Assembly (NCBI GenBank): GCA_016744905.1
Contig: JADGDM010000022.1
Coordinates: 1-40,009 of the forward strand
Direction of reading: 5' to 3'
Source: Sulfurimonadaceae bacterium
GTDB taxonomy: Bacteria; Campylobacterota; Campylobacteria; Campylobacterales; Sulfurimonadaceae
Length of the DNA stretch: 40,009 bases
The translations under genes and the position numbers were made by a program. Below the pieces are notes generated by a model. The model had not been told where the DNA came from. It was given only the letters and a program-made list of their open reading frames with translations, and searched no databases. This document shows, one piece after another, positions 2,450 through 14,619 of this stretch. How positions within the stretch are numbered: position 1 is the first letter of the stretch; every line of letters starts with the position of its first letter.

Positions 2450-4108
2450 ATGAAAGCTCTATTAAGCGCGCTCCTACTGTGCTCTAGTCTTCTATTTGCG
2501 GATACTCCAGTAGCAGAGGTTATTGCGCCTGAAAATAATGTCACAGCTGAAGATATCAACGAAACCCAGATCAGTTTAATGTTGGAGCGTCAAAAAGTTG
2601 TCCATCAGTATGAGATGCAACTGACACGTGTTGAGGCAAAACTCTCTAGTGAAAATCTTTGGACAAAAAGCCATAGTTCTTACCTTACCTATCTGGATTC
2701 AAAAAAAGAGTTAGAGACGATTAAAAAACGTATTGTTTTTCTTTCAAAACATGGTGATAGTATTGATTCGAGTAATGAACTCAGCGCGCTGGAGTCTAAA
2801 GAGAGTATCTTAGATGCGCAGTTGACTCTTCTTAGTGGAAAAGATCAAACACCATTCTCATCACTATTAAATCCAAAAGATATTGGTGAAACACCTGAAA
2901 TTACCAATCCTCTTGACCTTTTTACGGGAGTTTCATTTAAAAAACTTCTACGTGAAAACTTTGAGACTTATCGTGATCGTGAACGTTCTTTGGTGCAAAC
3001 CATTAACTTCTTACGTCAAAGAACCAAGATATTAAAAGATTTAGCACAGTTGGATGAAAGTAAATATACAAGTATTTATAACCTTTCTAACATCAAGTTA
3101 GATCGTTTTGAAGCAGCCTTAGATACAGTTAAATCAACGGCAGTTGTTTATGGACAGCATGTTGAGGAAGTTGAGCTAAAAGTTGAAGAGCAGATGAAAG
3201 TTCAAAGTTACAAACTGCTAAATATCGGAATTATTGTAACCGTAGTTTTTGTTCTTTTCTTTTTAATGAATCTAGGAATTAAACGCTATATTACAGACAA
3301 TGAACGTTTTTATATGGCAAATAAATTTCTTACCTTTGCCAAGTTTGTATTGATAGTACTCATCGTTGTTTTTAATTATATGGAAGATGTTAGTTACTTT
3401 ATCACCATATTAGGTTTTGCCTCAGCCGGTATCGCTATTGCGATGAAAGATTGGTTTATGTCAGTATTGGGATGGTTGGTTATCATCTTTGGTGGATCGA
3501 TTCATGTAGGTGATAGGATTCGTGTTGATATGGATGGTATTAAGTACGTAGGTGATGTTATGGATATTTCACTACTACGTATTACACTCCTTGAGGACAT
3601 CACTTTAACCACCGTGTATGAAAACCGTAGAGCTGGACGTATTTTGTTTATTCCAAATAACTATATCTTTACGCGTATGATTGCAAATTACTCGCATGAC
3701 TCTTTAAAAACAGTGTGGGATGGGATTGATATCAATATTACCTTTGATTCAAATCATAAAAAGGCAGTACATATTGCCAAAGAAGTAGCGCGTAAGTACT
3801 CTAAAGGATATACCGATATCACTCGTAAACAGTTAAATAAACTGCGTAATAAATACAGCTTGAAAAATACCAATGTAGAACCACGAATTTTCTCACTTCC
3901 TGAGGATTATGGTATCAAAATTAGTACCTGGTATTTGACCAATGCTTACGCAACATTGACCTTACGTTCAGTGATTTATGTAGAAATTATTGATGAGTTT
4001 AATAAAGCAGATGATATTCAAATTGCTTACCAAACACAACAACTTAATCTCTCACGGGGGAATTCGATTAAAGCCTCTGTTCCTTCTTCAGATATGGAGC
4101 TGGTATGA
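2450..4108 (+). CDS. MscS-family mechanosensitive ion channel
   Basis: This 552-residue exported and membrane protein begins with a signal peptide (MKALLSALLLCSSLLFADTP). A roughly 200-residue, charged, helical, probably coiled-coil periplasmic region follows, then membrane segments from about residue 255 to 355. The last of these is the MscS pore-type helix, with ASAGIAIAMKDWFMSVLGW and then IIFGGSIHVGDRIRV, which leads into the beta domain. The C-terminal cytoplasmic domain is present. Members release osmolytes during osmotic downshock. It sits directly after aroB without a gap and overlaps mtaB by four bases (ATGA). Confidence 0.9.
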   Translation: MKALLSALLLCSSLLFADTPVAEVIAPENNVTAEDINETQISLMLERQKVVHQYEMQLTRVEAKLSSENLWTKSHSSYLTYLDSKKELETIKKRIVFLSKHGDSIDSSNELSALESKESILDAQLTLLSGKDQTPFSSLLNPKDIGETPEITNPLDLFTGVSFKKLLRENFETYRDRERSLVQTINFLRQRTKILKDLAQLDESKYTSIYNLSNIKLDRFEAALDTVKSTAVVYGQHVEEVELKVEEQMKVQSYKLLNIGIIVTVVFVLFFLMNLGIKRYITDNERFYMANKFLTFAKFVLIVLIVVFNYMEDVSYFITILGFASAGIAIAMKDWFMSVLGWLVIIFGGSIHVGDRIRVDMDGIKYVGDVMDISLLRITLLEDITLTTVYENRRAGRILFIPNNYIFTRMIANYSHDSLKTVWDGIDINITFDSNHKKAVHIAKEVARKYSKGYTDITRKQLNKLRNKYSLKNTNVEPRIFSLPEDYGIKISTWYLTNAYATLTLRSVIYVEIIDEFNKADDIQIAYQTQQLNLSRGNSIKASVPSSDMELV

Positions 4109-8057: not shown

Positions 8058-8090
8058 AAAATTTAATTTAACTCAAAGTAAGACTTGATG

Positions 8091-8096
8091 TATAAT
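8091..8096 (+). promoter_or_regulatory. -10 box upstream of the heme lipoprotein gene
   Basis: A perfect TATAAT preceded directly by TG lies 27 bases before the TTG start at 8123. A weak -35-like TTTAAC is about 18 bases upstream. An AAGGG ribosome binding site follows at about 8112-8117. Confidence 0.55.
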
Positions 8097-8122
8097 ATAA
8101 AATTATATATTAAGGGACTGCT

Positions 8123-10687
8123 TTGAGAGATTTCTACCTACTTTTACTCCTTCTTTTTTTAAGTGCCTGTCGAGATAACAGTGAAATCACTGAACCACCA
8201 ATAGAAAATCCTCAAACACCATCCATTGTTATTATGGAATCAGAAAGTAATACTACAAACCTCTCTTGCATCAATAATTTTGAAACTTTTTTTAATGCTG
8301 AACTTAATGGCTGTGTGGCTTGTCATAAAGAAGGTGGTGTCGCCATCAATGCGAATGCACAGTTCCTACTATTTGATAATGATCCTTACGCAAACTATGC
8401 ATCAATGAAGTCCTATTTAGAACACTCTTCTGCGTTGTTTTTAAGTAAACCAACAGGTCTCAATCATCAAGGAGGTACTTTTATCACTCTTGATTCAGCA
8501 GAATATCAAAGTTTCGAGATTTGGATGCAGAAAATTAACGATGAGACATGTATCAAAAGTGAAAATTCAATTCTTGAAAGTAGTTACTATCAAGGAACAA
8601 CACTTTTAAGTTTAGAAGCGACGTATAAAAAAGCTTCTCTTTTATTACGAGGAACTCTACCTAATGTAAATGAGGTTGACCTTGTGAACATGATGCAAGG
8701 AAAAGGTTTTGATGCATTTTTAATGACCAGTGCGAATGATCAACTTTTAGTGAAAAAATATCTCAACGAAAATACTCAAGCGACGGAAATTTTAGACTCC
8801 TATCACTACCCAGAACTCACCAAACGTTTTGAACTCAGTATCATTAAGGATACTGCAGCATCTGTTGCTTATAACGAAGCGCTCATTCAAAATGCACCCG
8901 CTGATGAGTTAGAAACTAAACGATTACTTGCTGAAGTTGCTGGTGCAGAGTTGGACACCTCATTTTCAGAGACACAAGATGCATTGGTTTACGAACCTTT
9001 ACGTCTTATTGTTGATATTGTCAGTAATAATCGTCCTTATGGTGAGATATTAACGGCAGACTATATGATGTTAAACCCTTACAGTGCAGGTAGTTATGGA
9101 TCAACACTCAGTTTCAGTGATATGGATGATGTGGAAGACTATAAAAAAGGAAAAATTAATAAATACAATTTTTATTATCTTGATAATGATACTCCAGTAG
9201 GTTTAGACTCTAAAACTTATGATGCCCTACCTGTTGCAGGACTGTTGACTTCACCAATATTTCTAGCGCGCTACCCTTCAACGGCGACGAATAGAAACAG
9301 AGCGCGCTCACGTGCGGTATATAAACTTTTTTTAGGCTTTGATATTGAATCACTGGCCATCCGTTCCATGGACCCTGAAGAGCTTAAAAAAGCAACCAAT
9401 CCAAGTGACAGCAATAGCAGCTGTTATGCTTGCCATATTGTAATGGATCCCGTAGCCGGTGCTTTTTATAACTGGGGTGACAATGGCCATTTTAAAGAGC
9501 GCGCTTGAGTAGACTCTTTACCTGAAACCTATGTCTCAGAAGCACTCTATCATAGTGGCGATGTCTGGTATAGGGATAATTATATAAAAGCGGGTTTTGA
9601 AAAAGAGATCATGCCAACAACCCAAGAGTATGGAGAAGTTGCGGGAGAAAATGATGGAGTAGTGTGGTTGGCAAAAAAAATTGTGGCGGACAAGCGCTTT
9701 GCTGGTGCGACGGTTATGTTTTGGTGGCGCGCCATTTATGGTTCAAAACTAAGCAATAAACCAACCGTTTCAAGTGACAGTGATTTTGATAAAAAGCTCT
9801 CAATTTATAATCAAGAACAGCAAGAGATTAAAGAGGCAGCCGCTGTTTTTAGTGCAAGTAATCAAAATTTAAAAGAGATGTTTAAATATATGATTTTAGC
9901 ACCAAGATTTCGAGTACTATCGGTTGACGACAGTGCGCAGACTGACTTGTTAGAAGATGTGGGGATTGGTAGACTTTTAAGTCCTGAGGCATTAAATAAT
10001 AAAATCAAGGCAACAACAGGGTATCAATGGAGTCTGTTTTGGGATGAAAAACAAGATGAGTTACTGCGTAGTTATTATATGTTTTATGGGGGTATTGACT
10101 CTGATGGCGTGAGTGATAGACCTTTAGAACTCAATACCTTGATGTCAGCGGTAGTTGAGAGGATGGCAAATGAGATTGCTTGTCCGATTGCAATTAAAGA
10201 GTTAGATACCACTGTTGAAAATAGAAATCTATTTTCAGATATTAATCCAAGGTTAGAACCAATCAGTGACGCCAATATATTAAAAATAAAAACAGAGATA
10301 CAAAACCTACATAGTAGACTTTTAAAGGAAGAACTAAGTCTCAATAGTGTTGAGCTAAATGCGACGTATAATCTTTTTTATGAGATCTGGAATGAGCGTA
10401 AAAATTCTGTGAATAAAGATAATTATTCGATTGTTTTAGCCCACGATGAAGTAGAAAACCCTGATGGTAAATATGGTGAATTTTGTTTTTATAGTCCCGT
10501 AGTACGTTTTGATGAAAGTGTGTGGGTTGATGGCGTGATTGATTGGTCTAAAATCAATAACCATCAAAGTGACGCTGACTCTCCCAATACACTCTTAGGT
10601 GTCTTTATCTCACCAGAACAGACTATGCGCGCTTGGATAGCCGTTTTAACATACATGTTAAATGATTATAGATTTGTAGTAGAGTAG
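8123..10687 (+). pseudogene. heme-motif outer lipoprotein (PSD1/DUF1549-DUF1592-like), interrupted by an in-frame TGA
   Basis: One frame runs from a TTG start at 8123 to TAG at 10687 (855 codons) and is broken only by TGA at 9506-9508, codon 462. The N-terminus is a lipoprotein signal (LLFLSAC, Cys16). Heme-type CXXCH motifs are CVACH (64-68) and CYACH (434-438). Segments such as RGTLPNVNEVD, NRPYGEILTADYMMLNP and CHIVMDPVAGAFYNW recall the cytochrome-linked PSD1/DUF1549/DUF1592 families that are paired with DUF1501 proteins. Translation continues sensibly after the TGA (VDSLPETYVSEALYHSGDVW), and the next ATG in frame is at 9611. No frameshift is seen. It could be a recent nonsense mutation (TGG to TGA or CGA to TGA), a sequence error, or two expressed halves. 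Function is not established. Confidence 0.75.
9506..9508 (+). other. in-frame TGA inside an otherwise continuous reading frame
   Basis: Codons before and after the stop are in the same frame: FKERA, TGA, VDSLPE. The stop directly follows one copy of the AGCGCGCT palindrome (9498-9505). No convincing selenocysteine hairpin follows; the best pairing is AGAC at 9511-9514 with GTCT downstream, only four base pairs. Confidence 0.9.
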
Positions 10688-10696
10688 GGAGTTATT

Positions 10697-11965
10697 ATGC
10701 AAAGACGAGATTTTATAAAATTGTTAATGAGTTCATCTCTTATATCTCCTTCATTATTGAATGCAGGTGAAGCTTTTACGCCTTATACAGGAGAACTTTT
10801 TATAGTGGTTCACGCCAATGGTGGTTGGGATATTAGTAGTTTTTGTGATCCTAAGGCTGATCCATTAATCAATAACTGGGCGAAGACTCAAAGTATAGTG
10901 AATACTACTTCACAAATCAAATATGCCCCTTTTGCAAAAAACGCTAATTTTTTTGAAACCCATCATCAAGATATGTTGGTTCTAAATGGAATAGATACTC
11001 AGACCAATGCACATAATGCAGGTGTCCGTCATATGTTTAGTGGTAGATTTGATGAAGGTTATCCAGCCTTTGGTGCATTGTATGCCAGTATCAAAGCACC
11101 GAACCTTCCATTGAGTTACATCAGTAATGGGGCATATAATTACACCGCGTCTTTGAGTAACTTTACCTTAATGCAAAATCCAACTTCTTTGGGTAATTTA
11201 ATTGATACCAATGCTGCTCCTTATGGCAGTGCAGGTTTTCATCATAGCGCTCAAAATGATATCATTAAAAAGTATTCAGCTGCACGATTGGCGCGTGCGC
11301 AGGTGAATACCAAACTCTCCCCTAGACTGAAAAAAGCAGTCGACAGTTTTGCACAAGCTTCTCAATCAAAAGAGGAACTTTCTTTGTTGAAAAATTATCT
11401 TCCTTCGGCTGAAAATTTGGTACCTATTGTTGATGCCAATGATAATTATAATCCTTTACCTCGACAAGCGCAATTAACTTTAGTCGCTATGAAAGCAGGA
11501 TTATGCTCAACTGCTGATTTGAGACTTGATGGTTTTGATACGCATGATAATCATGATATTGAACATGGACTGGCACTGAGCAATCTTAGTGATGGTCTAA
11601 ACTTTTTATGGACGGAGGCGGAACGTTTAGGGATCAGTGATCGACTGACTGTTTTTGTTACCTCAGACTTTAGTCGTACGCCTTCTTACAATGACGGAAA
11701 AGGTAAAGATCATTGGCCCAGTTCAAGTGCTATCTTTATAAAGAAAAATGCTTCATGGGGAGGAAAGGTCTTTGGAGCGACGGATGATAATCTTGGCGCG
11801 CTGGCAGTGGATCAAAACATCGTACCCAGTGCGGGTGGAATTATTATCGAACCACGACATGTTCAAAGTGCATTAAGAAGCTTAGCTGGAATAGATCAAC
11901 ACGCGTATTCTCAGAAGTTTAACTTAGATAACAGTGATTTAGATCTTAAAAATATATTTTTATAA
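10697..11965 (+). CDS. DUF1501-type exported protein with Tat signal
   Basis: This 422-residue protein starts with a twin-arginine signal (QRRDFIK, then a hydrophobic stretch to about residue 24), so it is exported folded. Features of the DUF1501 family, which is distantly related to the alkaline phosphatase/sulfatase fold, are the early HANGGWD segment, NGIDTQTNAHNAG, DGFDTHDNHD and FVTSDFSRTPSYNDGKGKDHWPSS. The conserved Asp and His residues are suited to metal binding. It follows the interrupted heme lipoprotein by 9 bases with a GGGAG ribosome binding site. The two are co-transcribed, and a hairpin at 12042 terminates them. Its biochemical activity is unknown. Confidence 0.8.
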   Translation: MQRRDFIKLLMSSSLISPSLLNAGEAFTPYTGELFIVVHANGGWDISSFCDPKADPLINNWAKTQSIVNTTSQIKYAPFAKNANFFETHHQDMLVLNGIDTQTNAHNAGVRHMFSGRFDEGYPAFGALYASIKAPNLPLSYISNGAYNYTASLSNFTLMQNPTSLGNLIDTNAAPYGSAGFHHSAQNDIIKKYSAARLARAQVNTKLSPRLKKAVDSFAQASQSKEELSLLKNYLPSAENLVPIVDANDNYNPLPRQAQLTLVAMKAGLCSTADLRLDGFDTHDNHDIEHGLALSNLSDGLNFLWTEAERLGISDRLTVFVTSDFSRTPSYNDGKGKDHWPSSSAIFIKKNASWGGKVFGATDDNLGALAVDQNIVPSAGGIIIEPRHVQSALRSLAGIDQHAYSQKFNLDNSDLDLKNIFL

Positions 11966-12041
11966 TTTATTTGGAAATTAAAAGTAATTATTTGAATAAC
12001 AAAATTATTTTGTATTTAAAATTTGATTATTAAGTTTTATT

Positions 12042-12084
12042 AATAGATTTTAAATTTGATTTGTCAAATAAAATCTATTTTTTT
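12042..12084 (+). terminator. rho-independent terminator after the DUF1501 gene
   Basis: AATAGATTTTA (12042-12052) pairs perfectly with TAAAATCTATT (12069-12079). An inner ATTTGA/TCAAAT pair closes on a TTTG loop, and a T run follows. The right arm covers the stop codon of the convergent fecR-like gene. The T tract favours termination in the plus direction. Confidence 0.75.
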
Positions 12085-12659
12085 ATAAAATCGGCTTCTC
12101 TTCCGACATGGGCTTCTAACTGTATCAAATCTTCATCACTATGTCCTTGCCAGTCCATAGTGTATTTCACACCCTTGTCTGTAGCCCACATCATGACATG
12201 ATTATGGGTTGCAATATTTTCACTGAATTTTACAGTTTTCGAATGAATAGTTGTTTCTCCATAACAGGTACAAAAGTATGTTTTACCATCTTTAACTTCG
12301 GTATATGTTCCTGTTCCACGAATACCTGCAGTCATGTTTTTAGTTTCAATAGAGTGTTTTCCTCCACCACCAAAAACAGCAACCACGCCCCCATCAATAA
12401 TTTTAAGTACACGTTCACTACTACTTTTCTTCAACGTGAATTTACTTTTTCCCTTACTCATAAAAGCATCTTTACCGATGTTAAATCTTAAATGAGACCC
12501 TTTTGTTGTACTGATAATGTCACCCGCTTGGATACGAGTTTTATCTGTTAGCGGATGATTATTAACACGTATATCTCCATCAGATACAATTTTTTGATCA
12601 TTGGCTAAGAGAAGTGAAAATAGAGATAATGAGCTAATAAATAGGGCACTTTTAAACAT
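12075..12659 (-). CDS. FecR-domain periplasmic protein
   Basis: This 194-residue protein has a signal peptide (MFKSALFISSLSLFSLLLAN) and a single FecR domain. The domain shows the pattern of a low-complexity beta strand start (ISTTKGSHLRFNIG), KFTLKKSS, and the typical MTAGIRGTGTYTEV followed by a CTCYGE turn. Here there is no sigma factor or TonB receptor nearby. Instead the gene is divergent from a CHASE2 cyclase, a pairing that recurs in proteobacteria. A periplasmic sensory or ligand-binding role for the cyclase is inference. AAGGA ribosome binding site; its 3' end overlaps the terminator of the DUF1501 gene. Confidence 0.85.
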   Translation of the reverse strand: MFKSALFISSLSLFSLLLANDQKIVSDGDIRVNNHPLTDKTRIQAGDIISTTKGSHLRFNIGKDAFMSKGKSKFTLKKSSSERVLKIIDGGVVAVFGGGGKHSIETKNMTAGIRGTGTYTEVKDGKTYFCTCYGETTIHSKTVKFSENIATHNHVMMWATDKGVKYTMDWQGHSDEDLIQLEAHVGREADFIKK

Positions 12660-12689
12660 GCTAATCCTTACGTTTTTTGAAGTGGAATT

Positions 12690-12695
12690 ATTATA
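12690..12695 (-). promoter_or_regulatory. -10 box for the fecR-like gene
   Basis: Read on the minus strand this is TATAAT, 30 bases before the start codon, in the 46-base divergent gap. The plus-strand cyclase gene has no equally good box within the gap, so its own promoter is unclear. Confidence 0.5.
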
Positions 12696-12705
12696 TCATA
12701 AGCAC

Positions 12706-14619
12706 ATGAATAACAAATCAATATTTCTTATAATTGTTTTCTTTATTTTTTTACTACTGAGTACTTTAAGTTTAAATATATACACCATGGTTGACCCTTT
12801 TTCCAAGAGTATTCAAGCACAGATGTTTAAGTATCATGGTACCTCTAAAGCGAGTGATGAGATTACTATTGTTGATATCGATACAAGATCCTTACACGAA
12901 CTCGGCCAGTGGCCTTTCCCAAGAGATTATATGGGGAAAGTTTTGGAAAACTTAACGGCAGCAGGTGCGGGTATCATCGGGATAGATGTTGTTTTCTCTT
13001 CCCCTGATCGACTCTCTCCTAAAACTTTTGCAGCACGCTTGAATTTGGAGGGTGATTTTTTTGATAGTGATGCTTATCTAGCAGAAGTACTGAGTCGTAC
13101 CCCTACGATATTAGGTTATTTTTTTGATTTTGAAAAAAACAATTATCAAAGTGCACCTTTTTTACCTATAGAAATAATAGCGGATAAACCTCTTGATAGT
13201 TTAGATAGCATACCTGAAGCGATAGGGGTAGATAGAAGTATTGATATTATCTCCTCTGCAGCTTATTCTAGTGGTTTTTTTAATGTTTTAGAACATACCG
13301 CTATTTATATCAGTAAGATGCCTTTAATAATTAAATTTGATAAGGGATACTATACATCTTTGGCTTTTGAAATGTTGCGTATTGCTTATGGTTCATCTAG
13401 TGTGCATCTACATTATGATGATGTGCTTAAAGGTGTAGAATTAGGTGATTTGAGTATACCTACAGATGCTTTTTCAAGAATCAATTTAAACTATAGAGGA
13501 GAGGGTTTTACTTATAAGTATCTCTCTTTTGTGGATGTGTACAATAATGATTTTAATAGTAGTGATATTGAGGGGAAGTTTATTCTTATTGGCACGTCTG
13601 ATTATGGCTTAAACGATAGAGTAAACACACTTTATGATTCTCAAATGCCTGGGGTAGAAGTACACGCAACGGTGATTGACAATATATTAAATCAAGATTT
13701 TTTATATACACCAGAGAATGCGCATGTTATAGTCATTCTTGTTATTTTTGCTTTTACACTACTCTTTGGATTCTTTTTTTATAGAGTCAGTCTATTATTC
13801 AGCTTTTTATCTGCTCTGATATTTTTATCTATTTTGGTTTATATGACCTACTTCTCGATGTTTGAGTATGGCATAATTTTTGATATTTTTTATCCCATTA
13901 TATCTTTGTTTTTTACACTCCTTTTTCTCTCCCTAAGTAAGTTTTATGATGAAAATCAGCAAAAATCTCTCATTCGTGATAAATTTTCTAAAAAAGTATC
14001 CAGTGCTGTTGTGGATGATATCTTAAAAAATAGTGCATTGAATTTTGAAGGTGTTGATAGAGAATTGACTATATTCTTCAGTGATATTCGAGGCTTTACT
14101 CCCTTGTCTGAGAAACTCAATGATTCGAAGAAGTTAATTAAACTTTTAAATCGATATATGGAACCAATGATTGATGATATTATTGAACATAAAGGGACGG
14201 TTGATAAATTGATTGGTGACGCGGTAATGGCGTATTGGAATGCACCTACAAGATGTGAAAATCATGCTGAATTTGCAGTAAGCAGTGCATTGTCACAACT
14301 CGAAAAACTAGTAGAATTAAATATTGAGTTAAAAAAAGAGTTTGATGTTACGATAAAAATAGGTATTGGTATTCATACGGGTGATTGTGTGGTCGGTGAA
14401 ATGGGTTCTCATGATAGATCTGATTATACAATTATTGGCGATAATGTAAATTTGGCCTCACGTATTGAGGGACTATGTAAGAACTATGATCAGACATTGC
14501 TTATCTCTAAAAGTACAAAAGATTTATTGGGGGATGAATATCTGGCTACAAAAATTGACAGTGTCGTTGTTAAGGGAAAAAGTGAAGCGGTGGACATTTA
14601 TAGTGTTAAGAGACGTTAA
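12706..14619 (+). CDS. CHASE2-domain class III adenylate/guanylate cyclase
   Basis: A 637-residue sensor cyclase. The order is an N-terminal membrane helix (about 5-25), an extracytoplasmic CHASE2 domain (about 30-340, with GQWPFPRDYMGKVLENL and AGIIGIDVVFSSPDRL), three closely spaced membrane helices (about 345-425) and a catalytic domain. Metal-binding aspartates lie in FFSDIRGFTPLSEKL and LIGDAVMAYW; IGIHTGDCVVGEMGS and DYTIIGDNVNLASRIEG complete the site. The lysine of VDKLIGDAVMAYW is the adenine-selecting type, suggesting cAMP (inference). ATG at 12706 starts just before the first helix. It is probably linked in signalling to the divergent FecR-like protein. Confidence 0.9.
   Translation: MNNKSIFLIIVFFIFLLLSTLSLNIYTMVDPFSKSIQAQMFKYHGTSKASDEITIVDIDTRSLHELGQWPFPRDYMGKVLENLTAAGAGIIGIDVVFSSPDRLSPKTFAARLNLEGDFFDSDAYLAEVLSRTPTILGYFFDFEKNNYQSAPFLPIEIIADKPLDSLDSIPEAIGVDRSIDIISSAAYSSGFFNVLEHTAIYISKMPLIIKFDKGYYTSLAFEMLRIAYGSSSVHLHYDDVLKGVELGDLSIPTDAFSRINLNYRGEGFTYKYLSFVDVYNNDFNSSDIEGKFILIGTSDYGLNDRVNTLYDSQMPGVEVHATVIDNILNQDFLYTPENAHVIVILVIFAFTLLFGFFFYRVSLLFSFLSALIFLSILVYMTYFSMFEYGIIFDIFYPIISLFFTLLFLSLSKFYDENQQKSLIRDKFSKKVSSAVVDDILKNSALNFEGVDRELTIFFSDIRGFTPLSEKLNDSKKLIKLLNRYMEPMIDDIIEHKGTVDKLIGDAVMAYWNAPTRCENHAEFAVSSALSQLEKLVELNIELKKEFDVTIKIGIGIHTGDCVVGEMGSHDRSDYTIIGDNVNLASRIEGLCKNYDQTLLISKSTKDLLGDEYLATKIDSVVVKGKSEAVDIYSVKRR

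Follow-up and report, generated by a model that had tools for sequence, protein, structure and literature searches.

A single in-frame TGA, probably a very recent nonsense mutation, interrupts a diheme lipoprotein gene in a Sulfurimonadaceae draft genome

Results

The lipoprotein gene and its DUF1501 partner

The window analysed here, a stretch of 40,009 nucleotides, corresponds to contig C116 in a draft genome of 3.0 Mb, which comprises 122 contigs and is rated 99.99% complete. It carries a heme lipoprotein frame that is divided by one TGA and followed by a DUF1501 gene (Table 1). This TGA is the sole in-frame interruption of the frame that runs from 8123 to 10687 on the plus strand, and the next in-frame stop is the TAG at 10685-10687. 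Besides the TGA, we found no second stop in the 854 codons of the frame, and no frameshift was seen past it, as the initial annotation had claimed. The coordinates likewise bear out its placement of the TGA, 23 codons beyond the second heme motif (CYACH, residues 434-438).

Table 1. Coordinates of the interrupted lipoprotein gene and its neighbour in the window
Feature	Position	Strand	Description
N-terminal part	8123..9505	+	TTG start; signal peptide with lipobox LSAC; two CXXCH motifs (CVACH, CYACH); match to DUF1592 (PSD4) below and to DUF1588 (PSCyt3) above cut-off
In-frame TGA, codon 462	9506..9508	+	Gly in the uninterrupted ortholog; gap in four other aligned homologues
C-terminal part	9509..10687	+	392 codons and TAG; conserved in the ortholog and paralogs
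DUF1501 partner, intact	10697..11965	+	RR-type (Tat-like) signal MQRRDFIKLL, read by eye

The lipobox and both heme motifs were read by eye. The N-terminal part matched PSCyt3/DUF1588 (Pfam PF07627) with 31 bits against a gathering score of 27, and the read-through protein did so with 28.8 bits, while the match to PSD4/DUF1592 (PF07631) stayed at 19.5 bits, below the gathering score of 23.3. For the C-terminal part, the Pfam search gave no match above cut-off; a weak DUF1585 (PSD2) match (E 0.0069) was obtained for one protein out of the six in the alignment. The first ATG, GTG or TTG codon of this part is located at 9611, 34 codons past the TGA, and no signal peptide was seen on it by eye. 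The downstream partner, which had been described as intact, matched DUF1501 (PF07394) with 74.6 bits against a gathering score of 27 and is indeed uninterrupted. Downstream of the DUF1501 gene, 12601-14619 encodes a protein with CHASE2 and adenylate/guanylate cyclase domains.

Ortholog and paralogs

When 60 genomes were searched, including the own genome of the window, only the own genome and G009 gave matches. A scan of genome contigs yielded one locus, WFNF01000078.1 of a Helicobacteraceae MAG, where the match is positioned as in the G009 contig. In all, one close ortholog was found (L015/L020, from a related MAG). It is a single frame of 889 codons, 58% identical to the window protein, and a Met in it aligns with the TTG start at 8123. 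The alignment across the junction is gapless (FKERA*VDSLP in the window, FKENLGIDSLP in the ortholog), so that a Gly codon stands opposite the TGA in an uninterrupted, full-length gene. Identity to the ortholog is 61.8% past the TGA (235 of 380 columns) and 55.4% ahead of it (253 of 457).

An insert past the second heme motif is shared by the window copy and its ortholog and is absent from the other four of the six aligned proteins. The TGA sits inside this insert, and the remaining four therefore have a gap at its position. The initial annotation had considered Trp, Arg, Cys or a gap at this site; the gap was found in these four, the ortholog has Gly instead, and Cys occurs in none.

The own genome contains two more full-length, uninterrupted copies, located on contigs C77 and C122, and each of them adjoins an ORF that looks DUF1501-like by eye. 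A short match to the heme region was found on C29. A second copy of the gene at the DNA level was not found in the own assembly among the 40 of 74 candidates scored. The pairs of the C77 type (L018 on C77, L126, L127 and L130) are located near a gene for a DUF3570 protein, identified by Pfam in L018 and by eye elsewhere, and a gene for a small CXXCH protein; some of these loci also have a thioredoxin-like gene. The direct neighbours of the window pair include none of these three genes.

It had been proposed that both halves look like one protein, and the ortholog and the two paralogs are indeed single uninterrupted frames. The codon score of the C-terminal part was 0.167, compared to 0.184 for the N-terminal part and 0.187 for the DUF1501 gene, and the two other frames scored −0.143 and −0.092. 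Judged from these sequence comparisons, the two halves are one protein rather than two ORFs that lie together by chance, because the ortholog aligns without a gap across the junction, the codon score is coding-like and the identity to the ortholog is retained past the TGA.

Age of the lesion

We examined the alignment columns that are fixed in the outgroup for signs of decay. In the C-terminal half (75 columns), the window copy alone deviated at 4, the ortholog alone at 5 and both at 32; in the N-terminal half (67 columns), these numbers were 1, 2 and 20. At these columns, where the counts are small, lineage-specific change was not elevated in the window copy. Of the 7686 possible single-base changes, 394 give a nonsense codon. 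Since a second stop is absent, the neutral substitutions per site accumulated since the event would be fewer than about 0.023, under a Poisson model in which all changes are taken as equally likely. The lack of decay in the gene implies that the lesion is either very young or not real.

Interrupted copies elsewhere in the family

For a family survey, 228 genomes including the own genome were searched at E 0.001 or better, with at most four candidates scored per genome. Matches were found in 30 of them, 18 of which gave short matches only. The remaining 12 genomes had long matches, from which we obtained 16 gene copies: 11 complete and uninterrupted, two cut by a contig end (G009 contig C20 and G153) and three interrupted. 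In a separate search for gene order, matches at E 1e-20 were found in one of 398 drawn genomes, the own one, with at most two candidates scored per genome and the window copy itself unlisted.

The interrupted copies are those of the window, G231 and G062, and their lesions are unrelated and of three kinds. In the G231 copy (L125), an A run is six bases long, compared to five in the intact relatives L132, L133 and L134. The extra A lies at about 2960-2975 on the minus strand of contig C17, approximately 10 codons past the second CXXCH, and results in a frameshift. This run reads AAAAAAC, which is a slip-prone sequence, and the frameshift is possibly an assembly artefact. In G062 (L126), positions 3429-3502 at the end of contig C196 repeat, in inverted orientation, a part of the gene that lies about 0.5 kb further upstream; the two copies were compared over 50 bases and are identical there. 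The remainder of the gene opens contig C154. This interruption is certainly a fold-back artefact of the assembly.

The initial annotation had named a natural two-gene form, in which homologues end and restart here, as the case against its reading. No such relative was found among the 16 copies, 11 of which are single full-length genes, while the breaks in G231 and G062 are an A-run difference and a fold-back end; moreover, the C-terminal part of the window copy lacks a start codon close to the TGA. We rejected this form. That three interruptions lie no more than about 25 codons from the second heme motif is a curious coincidence, and one of them is an assembly artefact.

Discussion

Origin of the TGA

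We regard the TGA as a probable nonsense mutation of very recent date, affecting one of three paralogous heme lipoprotein/DUF1501 pairs. The gene product would be a diheme lipoprotein that is exported, belongs to the PSCyt/PSD (DUF1588) proteins and is paired with a DUF1501 protein carrying a Tat-like signal. A single point mutation in the sequenced strain or population would have changed codon 462 to TGA, where RF2 is expected to terminate, leaving a lipoprotein with both heme motifs that is shortened by the last 392 residues. The C-terminal part would not be restarted usefully, because its first start codon comes so late and it has no export signal. The event would be so recent that the rest of the gene shows no visible decay, and the two uninterrupted paralogous pairs in the genome may explain why the loss is tolerated. 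That the base is real, that truncation abolishes function and that the paralogs make up for the loss are our inferences. Two pieces of published background were counted against a nonsense mutation. In-frame stops in bacterial genes are widespread, are argued to be often read through and are mostly short-lived, according to an excerpt of PMC7918605, and many internal-stop pseudogenes of public genomes are assembly errors, as stated in an excerpt of PMC11017572.

The main and serious rival, which we consider possible though less likely, is that the draft assembly is wrong at the TGA, through a base miscall or a consensus error, and that the gene is intact in the organism. A miscall would account for the absence of decay equally well. 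In line with such an error, the lesion is a lone substitution with no other visible damage, the C-terminal half is under similar constraint, and the assembly is a draft in many contigs. Low-coverage assemblies commonly contain spurious internal stops (PMC11017572, in excerpt), and the drafts of two relatives carry one certain and one possible artefact near the same place. To see how unusual the TGA is in this genome, we scanned 400 kb (13% of the genome) together with the window, 440 kb in total, for long coding frames that are split by one stop and have no start codon for 15 codons past it. The scan returned the TGA of the window and one candidate in the 400 kb; this candidate runs antisense to an ORF of 495 codons (permease-like by eye) and was rejected as a shadow frame. 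No other convincing in-frame-stop split was present in the 440 kb, in a scan that is blind to splits with an early start and to all frameshifts. This speaks against a miscall, since the scanned part of the assembly is not visibly error-rich.

A nonsense mutation and a sequence error are thus the two explanations of the initial annotation that stay viable. It had also listed stop readthrough and selenocysteine; dedicated readthrough or recoding found no support, and selenocysteine is very unlikely.

It appears improbable that near-cognate decoding reads the TGA through at a useful rate and yields some full-length lipoprotein. TGA has been described as a leaky stop (PMC7918605, in excerpt), and the constraint kept in the C-terminal half would fit such decoding. 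However, RF2 (prfB) is present with 501.7 bits against a cut-off of 370, and the corresponding codon of the ortholog is a sense codon. The base after the TGA, a G, is also found in 8 of 24 TGA-ended frames of at least 250 codons (400 kb sample and window, this TGA included), so the context is not unusual. These 24 frames reclose at a median of 3 codons and one of them stays open for more than 100. Furthermore, no stable structure follows the TGA: the RNA 9506-9566 folded with a z of +1.36, 188 of 200 shuffles being at least equally stable, and two nearby stretches gave −0.55 and −0.30.

A general reassignment of TGA was rejected, since RF2 is present and TGA ends ordinary genes. In the 400 kb sample it terminates 34 of the 283 long coding frames, and in the window 4 of the 37 genes that were hand-picked from 46 ORFs for the codon and stop counts by excluding both halves, shadow ORFs and a duplicate start. 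No UCA anticodon occurs among the 40 tRNA matches listed, a list that is incomplete because Ala and Ile are absent from it; this also argues against readthrough.

We think it very doubtful that the spot past the second heme motif is repeatedly broken or bypassed in the family, by the TGA here, the A-run frameshift in G231 and the contig break in G062, so that a short diheme form is made along with some full-length protein by low-level readthrough or slippage. Hardly credible, too, is that the truncated diheme lipoprotein functions alone and the gene has been functionally shortened. The stop does lie just past the DUF1588 domain, the match to which extends to residue 459 and to profile position 96 of 98, and the truncated protein retains both CXXCH motifs. 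On the other hand, the C-terminal part is present in 11 of 11 complete uninterrupted copies, it is as ortholog-like as the N-terminal part, and no further lesions have accumulated past the stop.

That the TGA encodes selenocysteine has a negligible probability, the only point in its favour being the codon itself. In the own genome, highly complete as it is rated, neither tRNA-Sec (best 39.2 against a gathering score of 47, at a place that ARAGORN calls tRNA-Leu) nor SelB (best 111 against 242.25) rose above cut-off, while among 14 control genomes tRNA-Sec did so in 5 and SelB in 2. No SECIS-like hairpin was apparent, a search of 8060-12080 gave no Rfam match at E 1, and homologues have Gly or a gap at the site and no Cys. 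We rejected selenocysteine on these grounds.

Comparison with known systems

The closest domain-level relatives of the pair are PSCyt/PSD proteins encoded beside DUF1501, with which the window gene shares DUF1588 above and DUF1592 below cut-off, heme motifs and the adjacent DUF1501 gene. It differs from them in being interrupted and in the insert past the second heme motif, which among the six aligned proteins it has in common with its ortholog only. A weak similarity to RoxC, putative relatives of rubber oxygenases (NCBIfam NF051462), covers residues 5-144 around the first heme region; it is confined to this N-terminal stretch and, at 22.2 bits, falls far short of the cut-off of 900. Most RoxCs are predicted to be lipoproteins (PMC10837239, in excerpt). 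A profile search against solved structures gave one weak match, to a ULP protease domain protein (E 0.015), which we disregarded, and structure prediction of the read-through protein from a two-row alignment gave no usable model (mean pLDDT 31.8). In the literature searched, no paper contained both DUF1501 and DUF1592, and no established function of the heme lipoprotein/DUF1501 pair was found, as judged by titles and the openings of abstracts.

For annotation, the two ORFs are one interrupted gene, which belongs neither among selenoproteins nor among recoding events. Should the TGA be real, one of the three paralogous heme lipoprotein/DUF1501 pairs of the organism has only just been lost. The case is most likely ordinary, with no special decoding signal. 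The gene resembles the spurious pseudogenes that arise from assembly miscalls (PMC11017572, in excerpt) in its internal stop, its draft assembly and the absence of other decay, and differs from them in that the 440 kb scanned here hold no excess of such stops. From the recent nonsense pseudogenes of bacteria no difference was seen: the window gene, as assembled, shares with them one in-frame stop, a frame that is otherwise intact and conserved, and intact relatives.
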